From a virus: a stretch of DNA of 34,949 nucleotides. The first letter of the stretch is position 1; the number at the start of each line of letters is the position of its first letter. Positions 1 through 34,815 of this stretch are shown here, one piece after another. Under the pieces are notes generated by a model that saw nothing but the letters and a program-made list of their open reading frames with translations, ran no database searches and was not told where the DNA came from. A program made the translations under genes and the position numbers. The stretch spans positions 1-34,949 of IMG/VR virus record IMGVR_UViG_3300018083_000079; one strand, 5' to 3'.

Positions 1-4283
<4,283 letters not shown>

Positions 4284-22916: not shown

Positions 22917-25280
22917 ATGGAACGCAAGGTTAACATTCAAGACTGGCAGAAGGTCACGGTCGAGGACTTCAACAACTTCGGTCTATTCCCGCGATCTTCA
23001 TTCGATCACATCGTTGGCGATACCTTGATCCCGACGATGGCCTACACAGGTTTCACTGCGGTGCAGACTGCGCCAGCGGTTGTTACCGTTGGCAATGGTC
23101 GCCTCTATCACGCCGGCCTTGTGTTCTACAACGACAGCGAGGGTGGCTCGTCGCTCGATCTGTTGGGCGTACTGCCGGTGGTGACGCGGCGATATGTCGG
23201 CGTCGTGGTGTGGGGACAGGAAGTCGAGACCGACACCGAACCGAGAACCTTCCTTACCGATCCGGTAACACGTGCCACGGTCGCGCGCGTGGTGTCGACC
23301 GAGAACCGCCGCTGGGCCAACGTCTCCACCGTGGTCGGTGCCGAAGGACCTGATCCGCAACATCCATCGGTGGCATCGAACACGCTGGCCGTTGCGTGGA
23401 TATTGCTCGACTCGACCGGCATCGTCTCGATCCAGATGGTGGACGAGAACCGCGCGCCGAACCTCACCAATCTCGATGACCGAATGAACGAGATGGATGC
23501 GTGGCGTGCGGGTGCCACGTCACGGCTCGATACGCTGGCGACCGACATGGCATCGCTGGCGCTGCGCATCAACGGCACCGCCTCGATGCGGTTCGTGATG
23601 AAGGTCGCCGCTGACGTCGCGCGCGTGAAGGAAGTCCTGAACCTGCCCGACACCTATTCGTCATGGGGCGCTGATCACTTCCTGACGACGGATGAGTCCG
23701 ACGTCACGCACGTCGACTATCTTGCCAAGATCGAGGAGGGCATTCGATTCCCCGATGCTGCGCAGCGCGACGCGCAGATGGGCTTGCTCAATCCGATGGA
23801 CCCGGCGGTCATCAATCAGGCCAACTTCGTGCTGCCGGTCTACGACCCGGTGACGCGGCTTGAGGTGCTCGGCAAGGACAGTGATCTGTCGATCTCGCAG
23901 TACCAGTATCAAACCATCAGTTGGGAATTGTGCGCCAAGACCCGCACGCGGGTGCGCTGGGGCACGGCGTTCTATGTCTGTGCCAACGGCGTCTGGTGGT
24001 TCGCACCATCGGGTCGTGACTGGGTGTCATCGATCAACTCCGGCGAGTCACAGGGCGCACAGGCCGGCGGCATGACGCCGAACACCGACCTGATCTTCGA
24101 TCCGATCAAGAACATCCTGACGCGCGGAAACGAGACCTTCATGATTCTCGACGTGCAGGACAACCCGAACCACACCATCCTGCGGCTGGCACAGTACTGG
24201 GTCGATGAAATCATCGACTCGTATTACTGGCGGCAGGTGGTCACCATTGAAGGCCTGTCGGGATCGGTGGTCTCGCAGACCTTCCTCAATTCACAGGGCG
24301 GCTGGCTGATCGCGGTCGAACTGTTCTTCTCGCGCATCGCGGCAACTGGCGACGTGCACTGCCTGATCTGCGAGTGCAACACCACCGGCTCGCCGAACTT
24401 TGAAAAGACCATCGCGCGCTCGACCAAGCCGGCGGACCTTCTGCGGATCGATCCGAACGCCACCAAGTTCGACTTCCTGCCGACCTATCTGGCGAAGGGC
24501 ATTCGCTACGCCATCGTGTTGCAGACGGCGGGCAACCACTTCATCTCCCTCGTGCACAACAACAAGTTCGCGCAGGGTTCGCTGTTCTCATCGACCGATG
24601 GCGCGTGGTCGGTTGGCGATCTGACCAAGGACATGGCGTTCCGGTTGAACTTCGCCAAGTTCAGGAGCAACCGCTGCGAAGTGCAGTTGCTGTCGCTCGA
24701 ATTGAACGGCGGCATGGCCGCGATCGATCTCAACTTCGATAGTACGCGTCCGCCCGGCACCACGATCTCATTCGAGGTACAGATCACTGGCAACTGGGTG
24801 CCGCTCGGCTACTACGCATCCAACCCGCTGATCGCATTGCCGCCGCTGTTGCCGTTCCGCGTCTTGCTGGTTGGCACCACGGACGAAATGCCGGGCCTTG
24901 GTGTGGCGGCGCTTTCGCGCATGCTGACATCGCGACCACGCTCCGACTTCCGTCATATCTCGACGGCGCGAACGACGCCCGGTCCGGTCACCACGGTCTA
25001 TTGCGACTTCAGGCTGGAGAGTTGGCGGGGCCCTCCCTACCACACCTTCACGCCACGGCTGTTGGTCGGTGCCGGCTACGTCAACGTGCGCACGCCGTCG
25101 CTGATACAGGACGAGATCGATCCGAACGATCCGACCACGCTGGTGCGTTCGTGCACGTGGAATCTCGCCGCCCTCGGTGGTGCTGCGATCACGTCCTACA
25201 AGATCAGATCAGAGGGCACGACCGACAACGTGCTCGCGACTTACCTTGTCGGTGAGCGCGTCGACATCGCCATCGCATAA
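22917..25280 (+). CDS. Large baseplate/tail fibre-network protein
   Basis: 787 aa with ribosome binding site aggagagg overlapping the previous stop. The N-terminal 190 residues (D-F-N-N-F-G-L-F-P-R-S-S-F-D, V-G-N-G-R-L-Y-H-A-G) look like the N-terminal attachment part of phage tail proteins of the DUF4815 sort; that family name is tentative. A helical/coiled segment at about 185-225 is followed by a long beta-rich region. In the P2 order this place is held by gpH, the tail fibre. It is probably an adaptor or receptor-binding fibre of the baseplate. Confidence 0.65.
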   Translation: MERKVNIQDWQKVTVEDFNNFGLFPRSSFDHIVGDTLIPTMAYTGFTAVQTAPAVVTVGNGRLYHAGLVFYNDSEGGSSLDLLGVLPVVTRRYVGVVVWGQEVETDTEPRTFLTDPVTRATVARVVSTENRRWANVSTVVGAEGPDPQHPSVASNTLAVAWILLDSTGIVSIQMVDENRAPNLTNLDDRMNEMDAWRAGATSRLDTLATDMASLALRINGTASMRFVMKVAADVARVKEVLNLPDTYSSWGADHFLTTDESDVTHVDYLAKIEEGIRFPDAAQRDAQMGLLNPMDPAVINQANFVLPVYDPVTRLEVLGKDSDLSISQYQYQTISWELCAKTRTRVRWGTAFYVCANGVWWFAPSGRDWVSSINSGESQGAQAGGMTPNTDLIFDPIKNILTRGNETFMILDVQDNPNHTILRLAQYWVDEIIDSYYWRQVVTIEGLSGSVVSQTFLNSQGGWLIAVELFFSRIAATGDVHCLICECNTTGSPNFEKTIARSTKPADLLRIDPNATKFDFLPTYLAKGIRYAIVLQTAGNHFISLVHNNKFAQGSLFSSTDGAWSVGDLTKDMAFRLNFAKFRSNRCEVQLLSLELNGGMAAIDLNFDSTRPPGTTISFEVQITGNWVPLGYYASNPLIALPPLLPFRVLLVGTTDEMPGLGVAALSRMLTSRPRSDFRHISTARTTPGPVTTVYCDFRLESWRGPPYHTFTPRLLVGAGYVNVRTPSLIQDEIDPNDPTTLVRSCTWNLAALGGAAITSYKIRSEGTTDNVLATYLVGERVDIAIA

Positions 25281-27659: not shown

Positions 27660-29420
27660 ATGGCTGACCCAGTATTCGGCATTAGCATCCGAAAAGTTGA
27701 CGAAGGCGCGCGTCCGGTATTGGCCGCCGATCTTTCTACCATCGGCATCGTCGGACCTGCGCCGCTCGCCGATGCATCGATCTTCCCGCTCGACACTCCG
27801 GTGTTCATCAACTCGAACGATCAGAGCAAGACGCGCAAGCTTGGCGATCTCGGCTATCTCTCCGACGCCGTGCGCGGCATCAACGATCAGTTGGGCGAGA
27901 CGCAGTTCGCCGCGCGCATCGTCATCGTGCGAACGGCGGAAGGCACCGATCCCGATCCGGCGATCAAGTTGCAACAGACGATCTCCAAGATCGCTGGCGA
28001 CAGTCTCAATGGCACCGGGATGTGGGCGTTCCTGAAGTCGGCGCAGAGACTCGGCTTCACGCCACGCATCCTGACCGCGCCCGGCTACACTTCGCAGATG
28101 GCCAACGGTGTCGGTGCCATTGAACGCACCGCGCCCGGCGTAGGCTACGTCACCGACCATCTGTATCCGGTGGAATTTTCCGGCGGTGGACCGGAAGCCG
28201 TGCAGGCGACTGGCCACGCGTTCGGTCTTTCCAACGGCCAGCTTGGTCCCATCGAGCTCGAACTGCCCGGCGCGTGGTACGACACGGCTCCGACCATCGC
28301 GGTGCCGCCACCCGGCTTCCACGTGACGGCTGCCACTGTCGCAACCGGCGGCATCGGTTACGGCGTCGGCGAGCAACTGATCCTGCCCAATCAGGTGGTG
28401 CTGTTGGTGGCCACGGTGGATGTCGGCGGCGCGGTGTTGACGACGACGATCTCGAACGCCGGCTTCCTCGTTGGCACCGAGGAGCCAGCGGATACGCCGC
28501 AGGATGTGGCCGCGTCCTCGGGCTCGGGCACGGGTGCGACGTTCGAACTGACGTGGGCCGCGACCGGTACGCTCGCCACCTACACCGCAACGATTGTCGC
28601 TGGAGCCAATCCGGTTGTCGCTGGAGCCACATCAATCTGCAACCAGTTGCTTGGCATGATGATCGTGGAGAGCGCAGGCTCTTCGATGCAGAACGATCTC
28701 GACTGGCGTGAGACCATGCAGAGCCATCGATTGATCCCGATCTCCGGCGGCTGCCGCGTGATGGACCCGGTGACGTCCTACATCGTGATCCGGCCCTTGG
28801 CCCCGCGCATGGCCGGCATCATGGTGCGACGCGACCACGAGACTGGCGCGCCGTTCCACAGCGCGGCGAACCAAGCGGTGCAGGGCATCATCTCGCCAAA
28901 CCGCGAGATCGGTTTCAACCTCACCGACTCGGCCAACGAGGCGCAGGAGTTGCTCGGTGCAAATGTCGGCGTGCTGATCCGTGGTGAGGTCGGCGACGAC
29001 TTCGCGATTGCCTCGGGCGGCTTCGTGCTGATCTCGACCGACAACGCAGGCGAGGACCCGATCTGGCAAATGTACAATGTCATGCGCGGGCGGGACTTCA
29101 TCCACCTCGGCATGCTGCGTGCGCTGCGGTTCTTCCTCGGTCGCTACAACATCATCGGCCACACGGTGCAGGCGATCCTCAACACCATGCAGTTCTTCCT
29201 TCGCGACCTGCATGCCGATCAGCACATCCTCGGCTATCAGGTCAACTTCAGGACCGAGGGTAACTCACCCGAACAGATCAGGCTCGGGCATCTGACGGTG
29301 GGCTTCCAAGCGGAAGAGCCGCCCGTGCTGAAGCACATCACCATCGAGTCCTCGCGCTACCGTGAGGCCATCGATGCCATGGTTGGCGATCTCGCCACGC
29401 AACTGAACCTCTCGTCGTAA
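27660..29420 (+). CDS. FI: Tail sheath protein gpFI with inserted domain
   Basis: 586 aa against about 400 in P2. Residues 1-146 match the sheath N-terminal part (G-I-S-I-R-K-V-D-E-G-A-R-P-V, I-V-I-V-R-T-A-E-G-T). Residues about 316-586 match the C-terminal contractile-sheath part (V-R-R-D-H-E-T-G, N-R-E-I-G-F-N-L, R-G-R-D-F-I-H-L, G-Y-Q-V-N-F-R). Between them, residues about 147-315 form an extra beta-rich domain containing T-G-G-I-G-Y-G-V-G-E and G-S-G-T-G-A-T-F, elements typical of phage fibre shaft repeats. The sheath surrounds the tube and contracts on infection. Ribosome binding site aggaga at 27647-27652. Confidence 0.9.
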   Translation: MADPVFGISIRKVDEGARPVLAADLSTIGIVGPAPLADASIFPLDTPVFINSNDQSKTRKLGDLGYLSDAVRGINDQLGETQFAARIVIVRTAEGTDPDPAIKLQQTISKIAGDSLNGTGMWAFLKSAQRLGFTPRILTAPGYTSQMANGVGAIERTAPGVGYVTDHLYPVEFSGGGPEAVQATGHAFGLSNGQLGPIELELPGAWYDTAPTIAVPPPGFHVTAATVATGGIGYGVGEQLILPNQVVLLVATVDVGGAVLTTTISNAGFLVGTEEPADTPQDVAASSGSGTGATFELTWAATGTLATYTATIVAGANPVVAGATSICNQLLGMMIVESAGSSMQNDLDWRETMQSHRLIPISGGCRVMDPVTSYIVIRPLAPRMAGIMVRRDHETGAPFHSAANQAVQGIISPNREIGFNLTDSANEAQELLGANVGVLIRGEVGDDFAIASGGFVLISTDNAGEDPIWQMYNVMRGRDFIHLGMLRALRFFLGRYNIIGHTVQAILNTMQFFLRDLHADQHILGYQVNFRTEGNSPEQIRLGHLTVGFQAEEPPVLKHITIESSRYREAIDAMVGDLATQLNLSS

Positions 29421-29518: not shown

Positions 29519-30154
29519 ATGGCTAACGCAACGATCTACGTGATGGAGAGCGCGAACCTGATTTGCGGTGACACGCGCAGCACGGTCCCGGGCGGCATGA
29601 GTGCGCCCGGCATCTCGACGCATCTGGTGTTGCAGGAGTTGAAACTGCCGGCGATGGAAGAGAACTATGTCGACCACGCGCCCGGTGGTGCACCGATTGC
29701 AATCGAAATCCCGACACATCAGAACAAGCTTGAGGCGACGTTCAACCTTGCCGGTTGGGACCCGTCGCTGATGAGCTACATCGGCCAGAACGATCCGTAC
29801 TATCAGCGGTTCACGGCCTATGGCCTGATCAGGGATCGCAGGACCAGTCGCGCGCTTTCGGCAACGGCGGTGATCGAGGGTCGGCTCGGTCGCGTCAACC
29901 CGACCGCGTTCTCGAAGGGCAACCTGATGGCCCATGAGTACTCGATCAAGTCCATCGTGCATTACCAACTCACGATGCAGTTGACGCCGAACGGCCAGCG
30001 CCCGTTTGAAATCTACTTCTGGGACTTCTTCACCTCGGTGCGGCGCGTCGGCGGCAAGGACCTGAACGAGGACATGATCAGGATTCTGCGCATCCCGGGC
30101 AACGCGGTCGACATCGGCACCGGCTCGCCGATCTCGCCGATTGACATCGCATGA
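29519..30154 (+). CDS. FII: Tail tube protein gpFII
   Basis: 211 aa, about P2 tube length. A spaced ribosome binding site (aagga at 29506-29510) precedes the ATG. The protein shows the P2 FII family pattern: E-S-A-N-L-I-C-G-D, L-K-L-P-A-M-E-E, V-F/A-F-N-L-A-G-W-D, and F-F-T-S-V-R-R-V-G-G-K-D. It forms the inner tube surrounded by the sheath. It is ATGA-coupled to a tiny gene downstream. Confidence 0.88.
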   Translation: MANATIYVMESANLICGDTRSTVPGGMSAPGISTHLVLQELKLPAMEENYVDHAPGGAPIAIEIPTHQNKLEATFNLAGWDPSLMSYIGQNDPYYQRFTAYGLIRDRRTSRALSATAVIEGRLGRVNPTAFSKGNLMAHEYSIKSIVHYQLTMQLTPNGQRPFEIYFWDFFTSVRRVGGKDLNEDMIRILRIPGNAVDIGTGSPISPIDIA

Positions 30155-30741: not shown

Positions 30742-33700
30742 ATGGTTGATCCCGTCAAGGTAACGCTAACTGGTGAAGATAAGACGGCAGCGGCGTTCTC
30801 GTCGGCGACGAAGAACGCGCAGGCCTTGACCAAGGAATTGGAGAAGCAAGCCGGCGTCAATGAGAGCATGGCGCGCGCGTTGCAGAAGCGCGCCAAGGAT
30901 ACCAACAAGTCCTACGACGACATGCTGCGGTGGTCGATAGCTGCGCAGAAACAGAATGAGGACTACTGGAGGACACACAGGGCTGGATCACAGCAAGTCG
31001 TCAGCGACAACCAGAGACAAGCGACCGCGATCAAGGGCGTAGGAGCCGAACTGGTCAGCATGGCCAAGGGTTATCTTACGGTTACCGGGGCTATCGAAGC
31101 GGCGCGACGTTCGTTCCTCGGCTTTGCCGAGACCGAAAAGAAGATGCTGTTGTTGCAGAACCAGACCAAGGCAACGAGCGCCGAGATCAAGAAGTTCGAA
31201 GTACAGATCAAGCAAACCAGTCAGGACACCGCGACAGACTTTGATGAGAGTCTTGCCGCCGCCAACAGGCTGCGGACCGGTTTGAACATCACGATGGAGG
31301 AAGCGGTCAGGAGATTGCCGAGACTGAACATCGTGGCGCAGGGCATGGGCGTCGGTGTCGAACAATTGGCCAAACTCACGACCGGCATGATGCGCAACCT
31401 GAACATTCCAGCCAACCAGTTCGGTCAGGCGCTGGAGATTATTTCGGCAAGCGCACGTGATGCCAATGTCGATGTCAAAGACTTGGTACAGAACGGCACC
31501 GAGGTTGCCGAGGTCGCGAAGCAAATCGGTTATCACGGCCTCAATGGTCTCGCGCGCGTGCAGACGCTGATCGGTGTCGCCACTAACATCACGGATGATA
31601 CTTCCAATGCTGCGCGGCTGGTGCAACAAACTTTGCAGAGCCTTGAATCCGAAAGCATGGGCGCGGCGTTCGGGCGCACGCCCGGTGTCTGGAAGAAAGA
31701 ACTAGACGACGTCAAAGCGAAGGAGGGCGACGTCAGCGGCTACGTGGTCGGCCTGTTGAAGAACCGGCGCGATCAGAAGTCGATCACCGACAAGATGGAC
31801 GTCAAGCAACGGTTGTTCATCAACAAGCTGATCGAGGACGACAACGGCAAGATCGGCCAGACGATCAAGCTATTGAAGGATCAGGCGAACGGGACGCAAG
31901 CGATCAAGGATGGCATGAACGTACTCGCCGGATCGTCCAGCGGCGTTGATGCGATGAAGGTCTCCATTAAAGGTCTGGCCGATGAATTCGGCAACTTGCT
32001 GGCGCAACTCGGCGTGCCGCAGGTCATCATCATCTTTACCGAGAAACTGCGAGCCCTCGGCGACTCCATCAAATACGTTGCCGAGTGGATCGCCTACGCA
32101 AAGGGCGAAGGACCACGCCCGGAGATCAACATCATCGGGCCGCACGGCCTGACGATGCCGACGCCGAAGTCGGTCGGCGAAGGCATGATGGGGAAGCACG
32201 AACTCGAAGTCGGCAAGAAACGTCTAGAAGAGACGCTCAAGAACGAGAACGTGCCGGCACCTGCACCTGCACGACCTGCCTATGGACCGGGTTCGACGGC
32301 ACCTCGCACGGGCCCCGGCGCTCCTCTCGGGGCCGCCCCCGGGACCCCGGGCTATCAGCCATCGTCGTATCAGGGCGGCTATCGTGGCTACGGTGGCGCG
32401 GCTGACTCGGCCTACATACCGGCTGACTTCCGCAACGCTGCCGGCGGCGGCTTGCTGCATCGCGCATCGCTCGGCGGTGGTGGTAGTGGCGGTGGCGGCA
32501 GCCAGTACTCGCCAGCGGGGCCGGGCATGACGGGCACCGGTTACGGCGGCGGTGGCGGCGCGATGCTTCCAGCGGCACCGGGCGGTGGCGGCGGCGGCCA
32601 GCCCGGCACACCGGGCGTTGGTGCCGCGCGTGGCCGGGTTGGCAAAGGCGGCGATCCACGCGGTATGGAGGAGCATATCCGCGCGACCGCCGTGAAGTAC
32701 GGCATTGACCCCGACACCGCCGTCGCGGTTGCGAAGTCGGAAGGCCTCTCGACATTCCAGTCGTCGGTGAAGCGCGGCGGCAAAGGCAGTTATCAGGGAC
32801 GCGAGGACAGTTGGGGTGCCTTCCAACTCTACATGGGCGGCGGGCTCGGCAACCAATTCCAGAAAGAGACCGGGCTCGATCCGCGCGATCCCGCCAACGA
32901 GAAGGCTGGTATCGACTTCGCGCTGAAGCATGCCAGCAAGAAGGGCTGGGGCTCGTGGTACGGCGCGCGCAACACCGGCATCGGCAACTTCGCCGGCATC
33001 GGCGGCAATGCCGGCGTCGGTTCGGAGCGCGGCAGGGTGGCGCGCGCACCAGCGGAGACGTCAGTGGACACCGTCGCGCGCGGCGAGCGCGTGGCCCGTC
33101 CCGGCGAAGGCGGTGGCGACCGCGTGCAGGCTGGTCGTGATCTTCGTGGCACCGATCCGCGCCTCACCGAGATCGTCGGTGCGGCGGCGCGCGGTCTGCC
33201 GCCCGGCTACACGGTGGCACCGACATCGGGCCGGCGCACGGCAGGACAGGGACAGCACACGCACGGCCTCGCGCAGGACTGGCAGATCATCGATCCCAGC
33301 GGCAAGCCGGTGCCCAACCGTGGTGACGACAAGAGCGGGCTGTACACCACGCTGGCGCGCAACGCGTATGGCTATCAGGAAAAGTACCATCCGCAGATGA
33401 CCGGGAAATTCCAGTGGGGCGGACAGTTCGGCACCTCGGCGCGGAATCCTGACGAGCCCGACCTGATGCACTTCGACTTCGGCGGACGTCGTGGCCGCAT
33501 CGGTCGCTACTCGCGCGAGGCCATCGGCTCGGCATTGCCGCCGCCAGCGGACGCACCGCCATCCGCCGTTGCAGCCGACGAACCGAAGGGCGAGGGCGCG
33601 ATACAACAGCGTGAGCGCGAGGGATCGCGCGAGGAACAGATCAACGTCAAGATGAGGGTGAACGACAACGACATGCAATTCGCCCGCTCATCGATGCGCA

Positions 33701-33765
33701 CGCAGGCTGACCGCGAGGTGCGCGAGGCGCGTTGGAATTCATATAGTGACATCGGCGCAGCCTGA
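30742..33765 (+). CDS. T: Tail tape measure protein with two predicted cell-wall hydrolase domains
   Basis: 1007 aa. Residues 1 to about 470 are the tape measure part: long helices and coiled coil (E-L-E-K-Q-A, Q-T-K-A-T-S-A-E-I-K) with the family segment G-L-N-I-T-M-E-E-A and a hydrophobic stretch near 415-450. Residues about 490-635 are a Gly/Pro/Ala/Tyr-rich linker. Residues about 641-749 resemble a lysozyme/transglycosylase-like domain (probable catalytic Glu667 in V-A-K-S-E-G-L, then D-S-W-G-A-F-Q). Residues about 804-919 resemble an M15-type D,D-peptidase: T-S-G-R-R, H839-T-H-G-L-A-Q-D846 (the HxxGxAxD motif) and the second ligand His910 in L-M-H-F-D-F. It sets tail length and should digest peptidoglycan during entry. 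Confidence 0.85.
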   Translation: MVDPVKVTLTGEDKTAAAFSSATKNAQALTKELEKQAGVNESMARALQKRAKDTNKSYDDMLRWSIAAQKQNEDYWRTHRAGSQQVVSDNQRQATAIKGVGAELVSMAKGYLTVTGAIEAARRSFLGFAETEKKMLLLQNQTKATSAEIKKFEVQIKQTSQDTATDFDESLAAANRLRTGLNITMEEAVRRLPRLNIVAQGMGVGVEQLAKLTTGMMRNLNIPANQFGQALEIISASARDANVDVKDLVQNGTEVAEVAKQIGYHGLNGLARVQTLIGVATNITDDTSNAARLVQQTLQSLESESMGAAFGRTPGVWKKELDDVKAKEGDVSGYVVGLLKNRRDQKSITDKMDVKQRLFINKLIEDDNGKIGQTIKLLKDQANGTQAIKDGMNVLAGSSSGVDAMKVSIKGLADEFGNLLAQLGVPQVIIIFTEKLRALGDSIKYVAEWIAYAKGEGPRPEINIIGPHGLTMPTPKSVGEGMMGKHELEVGKKRLEETLKNENVPAPAPARPAYGPGSTAPRTGPGAPLGAAPGTPGYQPSSYQGGYRGYGGAADSAYIPADFRNAAGGGLLHRASLGGGGSGGGGSQYSPAGPGMTGTGYGGGGGAMLPAAPGGGGGGQPGTPGVGAARGRVGKGGDPRGMEEHIRATAVKYGIDPDTAVAVAKSEGLSTFQSSVKRGGKGSYQGREDSWGAFQLYMGGGLGNQFQKETGLDPRDPANEKAGIDFALKHASKKGWGSWYGARNTGIGNFAGIGGNAGVGSERGRVARAPAETSVDTVARGERVARPGEGGGDRVQAGRDLRGTDPRLTEIVGAAARGLPPGYTVAPTSGRRTAGQGQHTHGLAQDWQIIDPSGKPVPNRGDDKSGLYTTLARNAYGYQEKYHPQMTGKFQWGGQFGTSARNPDEPDLMHFDFGGRRGRIGRYSREAIGSALPPPADAPPSAVAADEPKGEGAIQQREREGSREEQINVKMRVNDNDMQFARSSMRTQADREVREARWNSYSDIGAA

Positions 33766-33964: not shown

Positions 33965-34522
33965 ATGGCCAACTGGGTGATGTTTCAATGGGGACCTATA
34001 CAGTTTCAGGTCTTTCCGATGAACGTCGACAATTACGCGCACCACACGGGCGCGGACTGGGCCAAGAAGGAGATCGCGGGTGCCGCGATGTACCGGGAAT
34101 GGGTCGGTGAGGCCGACGAGTCGATCACGCTGAAGGGCAAAGTCTTTCCGCACTTCTTCGCCCGCAAGTCGCGAGCACGAGGCCTCGGGCAACAGACGGA
34201 TGGGCCGAAGGCGACGCGCGATCCCGAAACCCAGTTGGTGCAGGAGCACGTTGGCAAGGAGCAATCTGCCGGCGGGCTCTATCATCTCGACGTGCTCGAC
34301 AACATGCGCCGGCTCGGTCAGGCGCACATTCTGATGCGTGGCGACGGCTGGCATTATGGCTGGTACATCATCGAGACGCTGCATCGCGGTCACACGTTTC
34401 TGGCGCAGGATGGCATCGGCCAACAGATCGAGTTCGAGGCCGCATTTCAGCGCGTGCCGATCCCCAATGATGCGGCATCCAACACCGTGCAGATGTACAA
34501 TTCGGGAGCGATCACCGCATGA
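33965..34522 (+). CDS. U: Tail protein gpU
   Basis: 185 aa. The gpU signature is clear: M-F-Q-W-G-P-I-Q-F-Q-V, R-E-W-V-G-E-A-D-E-S-I-T-L-K-G, V-F-P-H-F, and L-M-R-G-D-G-W-H-Y-G-W-Y. P2 gpU is needed for tail completion near the baseplate/tail hub. It has a ribosome binding site (aggag) and overlaps X by ATGA. Confidence 0.88.
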   Translation: MANWVMFQWGPIQFQVFPMNVDNYAHHTGADWAKKEIAGAAMYREWVGEADESITLKGKVFPHFFARKSRARGLGQQTDGPKATRDPETQLVQEHVGKEQSAGGLYHLDVLDNMRRLGQAHILMRGDGWHYGWYIIETLHRGHTFLAQDGIGQQIEFEAAFQRVPIPNDAASNTVQMYNSGAITA

Positions 34523-34815
34523 CCGTTGTCTCCTATGATCTCGTGACGGTCGGCTCGGACTACATCACCGCCGACATCATCCTGTGGCGCAGGTATCGCA
34601 ACCGCGCGCCGCTGATGATCGAGCGCTTGCTGGATGACAATCCACACCTCGCGAAGTGTCACCGCTACTCGCCGTTTCTCCCCGTAGGCACGCAGCTACG
34701 CATCCCGATTGATTACGACGTCCTGAGCGGATCGCCGCAACGCAAGAACACCGTCGTGCTATGGGGCAAGACGCCGGAGGGCAACATGACGCAAGGAGCG
34801 GCTGAGAATGGTTGA
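34519..34815 (+). CDS. X: Tail protein gpX (LysM-like)
   Basis: 98 aa. It starts as T-V-V-S-Y-D-L-V-T-V and contains L-L-D-D-N-P-H-L-A and L-P-V-G-T-Q-L-R-I-P, the P2 gpX/LysM-type pattern. In P2 gpX is a small baseplate protein bound near D. It is coupled by ATGA from U and overlaps D by eight bases. Confidence 0.88.
   Translation: MTVVSYDLVTVGSDYITADIILWRRYRNRAPLMIERLLDDNPHLAKCHRYSPFLPVGTQLRIPIDYDVLSGSPQRKNTVVLWGKTPEGNMTQGAAENG

Follow-up and report, generated by a model that had tools for sequence, protein, structure and literature searches.

Does a single tail protein of a phage with a Gram-negative host carry two different enzymes for cutting peptidoglycan, and how unusual would such a pair be? 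These questions are raised by one gene in the 34,949-nucleotide stretch of viral DNA analyzed here (henceforth termed the window), in which an initial annotation, made from sequence alone, had proposed a tape measure protein that combines a lysozyme-like domain with a peptidase of the M15 type. According to the literature, the two-domain virion lysins known to one review all come from Gram-positive-specific phages (PMC5380687); a second review describes a single catalytic domain as typical of the virion lysins of Gram-negative phages and assigns virion endopeptidases almost entirely to Gram-positive phages (PMC6116005). The reviews explain this bias by the thickness of the wall (PMC6116005, PMC5380687). 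As to what such a domain can contribute, that of TM4 has been reported as dispensable in growing cells and helpful in stationary ones (PMC1796659). A full-text literature search combining tape measure, M15 peptidase, and lysozyme matched a single paper, on Gordonia phage endolysins and holins.

Results

The open reading frame (ORF) at 30742-33765 on the + strand encodes a protein of 1007 aa. A Pfam search with this protein returned PF10145 PhageMin_Tail above the cut-off (E 1.7e-13). The product also matches PHROG 28 'tail length tape measure' (3.1e-12) and scores just under the cut-off of NCBIfam tape_meas_TP901. The gene belongs to a contractile-tail operon with the order baseplate wedge plus Tail_P2_I protein, 787-aa protein, sheath, tail proteins, tape measure, GpU, and hub. 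It thus occupies the position expected of a tape measure, between the sheath/tube and the GpU/hub genes, and the tail gene order of Aurantimonas phage AmM-1 is identical. By profile and gene order, the ORF is assigned as a tape measure protein, in agreement with the initial annotation. The relevant features of the tail region are:

30742-33765, + strand: tape measure protein (1007 aa); Pfam, PHROG, and NCBIfam profiles and gene order
31204-31680, + strand: PhageMin_Tail region, residues 155-313, tape-measure body; Pfam PF10145
32239-32649, + strand: Gly/Pro-rich linker, about residues 500-636; from sequence
27660-29420, + strand: tail sheath (contractile tail); PHROG 23, E 2.7e-47
33965-34522, + strand: P2 GpU-like tail protein; Pfam PF06995, 3.5e-25
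34519-34815, + strand: baseplate hub protein; PHROG 46, 4e-8

Three further genes in the window deserve mention. The ORF at 29519-30154, in the interval between sheath and tape measure, matches PHROG 55 'head closure' (6e-17); AmM-1 has a tail tube gene there. The long ORF at 1740-4283 combines collagen-like repeats and a SPRY-like stretch with a match to Fibritin_C, and probably encodes a tail fibre. The 787-aa protein (22917-25280) matches PHROG 17470, of unknown function, at 1e-181 and is conserved in Bradyrhizobium and Aurantimonas phages in the same slot between baseplate and sheath genes.

Relatives of the 787-aa protein also bear on the host: they occur at 33% in Bradyrhizobium phage BDU-MI-1, at 29% in Aurantimonas phage AmM-1, and at up to about 36% in prophages of Bradyrhizobium genomes. 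Together with the Hyphomicrobiales genomes that contain the lysozyme module and a Bradyrhizobium prophage tape measure with the C-terminal tail of the window (both described below), they make the host very probably a Gram-negative member of the Hyphomicrobiales. A search of the phage collection found no near-identical phage, and a whole-protein scan of genome contigs returned no relative of the tape measure.

Sequence and profile searches fell short for the two hydrolase domains proposed behind the linker, profiles of three and nine rows having no success against the PDB, so predicted folds were needed. Residues 637-752 were not recognized in single-sequence Pfam and PDB searches, with neither a Pfam lysozyme match in the window protein nor an SLT match above the Pfam cut-off, and a 79-row profile of the domain run against the PDB gave no genuine match. 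AlphaFold2 modelled this region with high scores (pLDDT 95.3, pTM 0.89). Aligned with VIA-align, the model superimposes on C-type lysozyme with Z 8.1 and an rmsd of 3.0 over 101 residues, a Z near 8 that may be generic; all 50 matches listed nevertheless belong to the lysozyme superfamily, among them EtgA, T7 gp16, GH23 enzymes, and an Rpf. The top Foldseek matches were lytic transglycosylases, lysozymes, T7 gp16, and GH19 chitinases, none of them significant (best E 0.17).

32650-32997, + strand: lysozyme-superfamily domain, residues 637-752; 79-sequence alignment, AlphaFold2 model, fold matches mainly to the lysozyme superfamily
32740-32742, + strand: Glu667 codon, predicted general acid; E in 79/79 homologues

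Relatives of this module were confirmed in 239 IMG/VR stretches, 80 of which were kept, and at 17 genome-contig loci, all in Hyphomicrobiales going by their titles. Across 79 module sequences, Glu667, Gly668, Ser690, and Gln695 are invariant, and the seeds used for the main scans (IMG/VR and genome contigs) did not include Glu667. A weak profile match also pairs this residue with a Glu of EtgA. The uniform list of lysozyme matches, together with the invariant Glu, leads us to predict a lysozyme-superfamily fold for residues 637-752. The module is additionally part of an internal virion protein in both Sulfitobacter phage phiGT1 and Sinorhizobium phage phiM5, and it occurs in an Ochrobactrum phage protein and in the tape measures of two Rhizobium phages. 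The phiM5 protein is named 'internal virion protein/exolysin', and its annotation places it in the proteome of the particle.

One detail of this assignment has a serious competitor, namely that the domain is a lytic transglycosylase releasing an anhydromuramoyl product instead of a hydrolyzing muramidase. The GH23 enzymes Slt, MltE, and MltF stand beside EtgA and T7 gp16 among the fold matches, and Glu688, the candidate for a second carboxylate, is kept in just 53 of the 79 sequences. C-type lysozymes rank at the top by Z, which speaks for a muramidase, but the lead is within 1 unit and amounts to a tie in VIA-align; the missing Pfam SLT match also counts against a transglycosylase. We place this alternative a little short of an even chance.

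For the second domain, residues 797-935, single-sequence PDB and Pfam searches likewise gave nothing useful (Pfam M15_4 scores E 0.24 in the window protein, below the cut-off). A 57-row profile yielded weak PDB matches to M15 enzymes and VanX, and M15_4 is found at E<=0.1 in 35 of the 57 family members, with a best value of 1.2e-5. The AlphaFold2 model (pLDDT 94.9, pTM 0.90) gave Foldseek matches to LysECD7 (3.8e-5) and ChiX (9.0e-4) and superimposes on ChiX in VIA-align with Z 10.3 and an rmsd of 2.7 over 103 residues.

33130-33546, + strand: M15C-type zinc metallopeptidase domain, residues 797-935; 57-sequence alignment, AlphaFold2 model, ChiX/LysECD7 fold matches, weak Pfam M15_4
33256-33258, + strand: His839 codon, predicted Zn ligand; H in 56/57, the exception having a shifted motif
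33277-33279, + strand: Asp846 codon, predicted Zn ligand; D in 57/57
33460-33462, + strand: Asp907 codon, predicted catalytic base; D in 57/57, partly seed-biased
33469-33471, + strand: His910 codon, predicted Zn ligand; H in 57/57, partly seed-biased

The Zn-ligand set of an HxxGxAxD motif and a C-terminal His is present, with the leading Ser of SxHxxGxAxD replaced by Gly in the window protein. Conservation of these residues is near-complete among the homologues, although D907-D912 lie partly inside the seeds of the largest M15 scan, with His839 and Asp846 outside them. The spacing of His839 and Asp846 equals that of His80 and Asp87 in Ply500, whose third ligand is quoted as His133 (PMC3315420). 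A profile search with the module found 77 loci, and relatives of residues 797-935 recur at 63-77% identity in unrelated backbones, which excludes chance. A degenerate M15 domain was rejected on account of the conserved ligands. Since M15C L-Ala-D-Glu endopeptidases such as ChiX are its nearest relatives of solved structure, the domain would cut within the stem peptide, most likely at L-Ala-D-Glu, by analogy with these enzymes; the M15 fold is also common to VanX/VanY-type D,D-peptidases and carboxypeptidases.

Taken together, two different peptidoglycan-cutting domains are predicted in one tail protein, and an enzymatic reading of both is well supported by conservation and models. Glu667, His839, Asp846, and His910 are all where the initial annotation had placed them, the Gly/Pro-rich linker precedes the hydrolases, and structure prediction gave both regions the hydrolase-type folds that had been proposed. 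The annotation's division of labor, one enzyme for the glycan and the other for the peptide bridge, holds insofar as two different cutters are predicted; the word 'bridge' does not, because M15C relatives cut the stem peptide.

The initial annotation had also called the combination uncommon and suggested a search in relatives. In a sample seeded with the lysozyme module, a second hydrolase was recognized in 22 of 79 (28%) non-redundant ORFs of tape-measure size, defined as at least 600 aa and confirmed as tape measures in part, versus 2 of 33 shorter ORFs. These second hydrolases comprise M15C, other M15-like types, M23, amidase-2, and CHAP/NlpC-like domains. In a larger pooled set of 84 ORFs, 26 were dual and the lysozyme module came first in 24. 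The peptidase precedes the lysozyme module in L009, L293, and the fragments L125, L126, and L026. The exact lysozyme and M15C pair is found in the order of the window in a Methylobacterium variabile prophage (L116) and reversed in two fragments. M15C moreover stands beside other glycosidases: SLT (L136), GH24 (L162), SLT_3 (L161), and Phage_lysozyme2 (L129, L131, L135, and L154). A unique combination can thus be rejected. The judgement of rarity stands for the exact M15C pair and was overstated for second hydrolases generally, which occur in either order; predicted hydrolase pairing is common, yet not obligatory.

Other contexts of M15C were seen along the way. A 16-member cluster of long tail-type proteins (L145, L146, L148, L149, and 12 others) carries M15C but shows no glycosidase at a distance of up to 260 aa. 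In L121, M15C lies inside a very large open frame (>2500 aa) in which no lysozyme module was recognized. L150, L168, L178, L181, and their relatives, of ~410-670 aa, have M15C followed by a lysozyme-like stretch (AIESAGSGDY...GRYQVM) with no Pfam match, and may represent a separate two-enzyme family.

Comparison with relatives at the DNA level reveals that the peptidase region is an exchanged cassette. Relatives of the window tape measure retain the backbone, the lysozyme module, and the C-terminal tail. Where the window has M15C, a different M15-like module (SHRHDxGxAxD) is present in L005 and L006. Aligned with L005, the window DNA matches at 81% through 32581-33041, loses the match across the M15 cassette, and regains 81% from 33626 onward. 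The converse holds for L017, L018, L098, L099, and L101, whose DNA similarity to the window in this region is confined to about 33109-33543. Flanks that match without the cassette, and a cassette that matches without its flanks, together establish exchange.

33042-33625, + strand: exchangeable peptidase cassette; bounded by the L005 comparison
33626-33761, + strand: conserved C-terminal tail (VKMRVNDNDMQFARSSMRTQADREVREARWNSYSDIGAA region); common to relatives with different hydrolases and a Bradyrhizobium prophage tape measure

The tail could possibly act as a hub or tip anchor. In L009, a cysteine-type module, without a Pfam match and classed from motifs and a two-sequence profile, is placed before the lysozyme module. 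L008 and L009 are nearly identical tape measures; ahead of the lysozyme domain, L008 lacks 24 residues and with them the putative catalytic Cys of this module, representing either a natural inactivation or a population variant.

The same variability extends to bacterial genomes. In Methylobacterium, the genus of M. variabile, the lysozyme module is present in 20 of 111 genomes and a second hydrolase in 11 of 25 ORFs of tape-measure size, drawn from M15C, the SHRHD type, two further M15-like types, M23 (Pfam 2.3e-19), and an amidase-2-like domain. L116 (M15C) and L279 (another M15 type) are 86% identical in the N-terminal backbone and 79% in the tail, with different peptidases between. In Bradyrhizobium, a CHAP-like (L305) or an amidase-2-like (L306) domain comes after the lysozyme module, and the prophage tape measure L324 has the C-terminal tail of the window.

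These replacements also help to decide what the M15 domain does. It could be that the lysozyme-like domain alone cuts the wall at infection, with M15 trimming peptidoglycan as a carboxypeptidase- or D,D-dipeptidase-like enzyme or binding it as a non-catalytic domain. Carboxypeptidases and non-enzymatic Hedgehog domains are indeed among the M15-fold neighbours listed, and 57 of the 79 ORFs of tape-measure size have the lysozyme module without a recognized second hydrolase, so that the group as a whole can do without the second enzyme. Two observations speak against a trimmer or binder. The base and every Zn ligand are conserved, each in 56-57 of 57 homologues, and the domains found at the same position are peptidoglycan peptidases and amidases (M23, amidase-2-like, and CHAP-like), which argues for a cutting role of the slot. 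We consider a trimming or binding M15 domain unlikely.

Discussion

We regard it as highly likely that the window encodes the tape measure of a contractile-tailed phage with a Hyphomicrobiales host, carrying near its C-terminal end two peptidoglycan-cutting enzymes that act at entry, the peptidase being swappable. In the mechanism that we propose, the sheath would contract upon infection and the tube pass the outer membrane, after which the tape measure would exit the tube into the periplasm. There, the lysozyme-like domain (Glu667) would cleave glycan strands and the M15C-type zinc peptidase (ligands His839, Asp846, and His910, base Asp907) the stem peptide, most likely at L-Ala-D-Glu. Both cuts together would breach the wall locally and let the tube and the DNA pass. 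The peptidase would be an interchangeable part, replaced in relatives by a different peptidase or amidase, or by none. We infer the enzyme activity, bond specificity, virion presence, tip-proximal placement, and entry action of both domains.

A role of both domains in lysis from within or virion release, suggested by endolysins being the most familiar carriers of M15C domains (8q2g, 2vo9, and 6akv), appears very improbable given their fusion into a tail structural protein within a tail operon and the presence of the lysozyme module in internal virion and injection proteins of podoviruses. That the pairing is an artefact of assembly or annotation on a single metagenomic viral contig is a negligible prospect, the assembly being vindicated by a full-length protein 99.9% identical on two other contigs (L001 and L002) and the pair recurring in the named Methylobacterium genome.

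Several known systems share parts of this arrangement. CwlP (YomI) of the Bacillus prophage SP-beta is a precedent for a glycosidase and a peptidase in one large phage tail protein; it differs in its Gram-positive host and in its peptidase, which is of another type (M23) and not M15C. A review describes the CwlP domains as a muramidase and a DD-endopeptidase (PMC5380687). Closer in context is the tape measure of Bradyrhizobium phage BDU-MI-1 (ARQ95328), a phage with a Gram-negative host, which is encoded at the corresponding position of a related operon for a contractile tail. At the end of this protein, a lysozyme-like stretch precedes a TIGR02594/CHAP-like cysteine domain (E 3.7e-13). Its enzyme families differ in both positions, and the lysozyme-like stretch, judged by eye, has no significant match to the window module. 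The tape measure of the M. variabile prophage shares the lysozyme and M15C pair on a different backbone, the M15 domains being 38% identical. T7 gp16 (fold match 7k5c) and the phiM5 internal virion protein, whose module is 40% identical to that of the window, likewise carry a lysozyme-superfamily domain in the virion; both are internal virion proteins of short-tailed phages, and in phiM5 no second hydrolase domain was recognized. The M15C L-Ala-D-Glu endopeptidases ChiX, LysECD7, Ply500, and T5 endolysin agree with the window domain in fold, zinc ligands, and spacing, but they are free-standing enzymes, mostly endolysins, and not domains of a tape measure.

The less expected point, absent from the initial annotation, is the Gram-negative host. 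From sequences and models, we predict that phages of Gram-negative Hyphomicrobiales frequently carry two-domain virion lysins and virion endopeptidases. In sequence and predicted structure, the pattern in phages of rhizobia and methylobacteria contradicts the generalization drawn in the reviews; the Gram-positive host of the reviewed examples (PMC5380687) is a statement about sampling and not a defining feature, and fails here. The wider pattern is that of an exchangeable second hydrolase in the tape measures of phages with Gram-negative hosts. Related backbones with different peptidases form natural swap sets that allow a direct test of what the second cut is worth. More tentatively, and with doubt prevailing, the tape measures of Hyphomicrobiales phages may carry a recombination cassette that joins a constant lysozyme module to one of several interchangeable peptide or amide cutters selected to match the crosslinking of the host wall. 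If true, the two-cut strategy would be a general solution for some Gram-negative phages and not a response to a thick wall.
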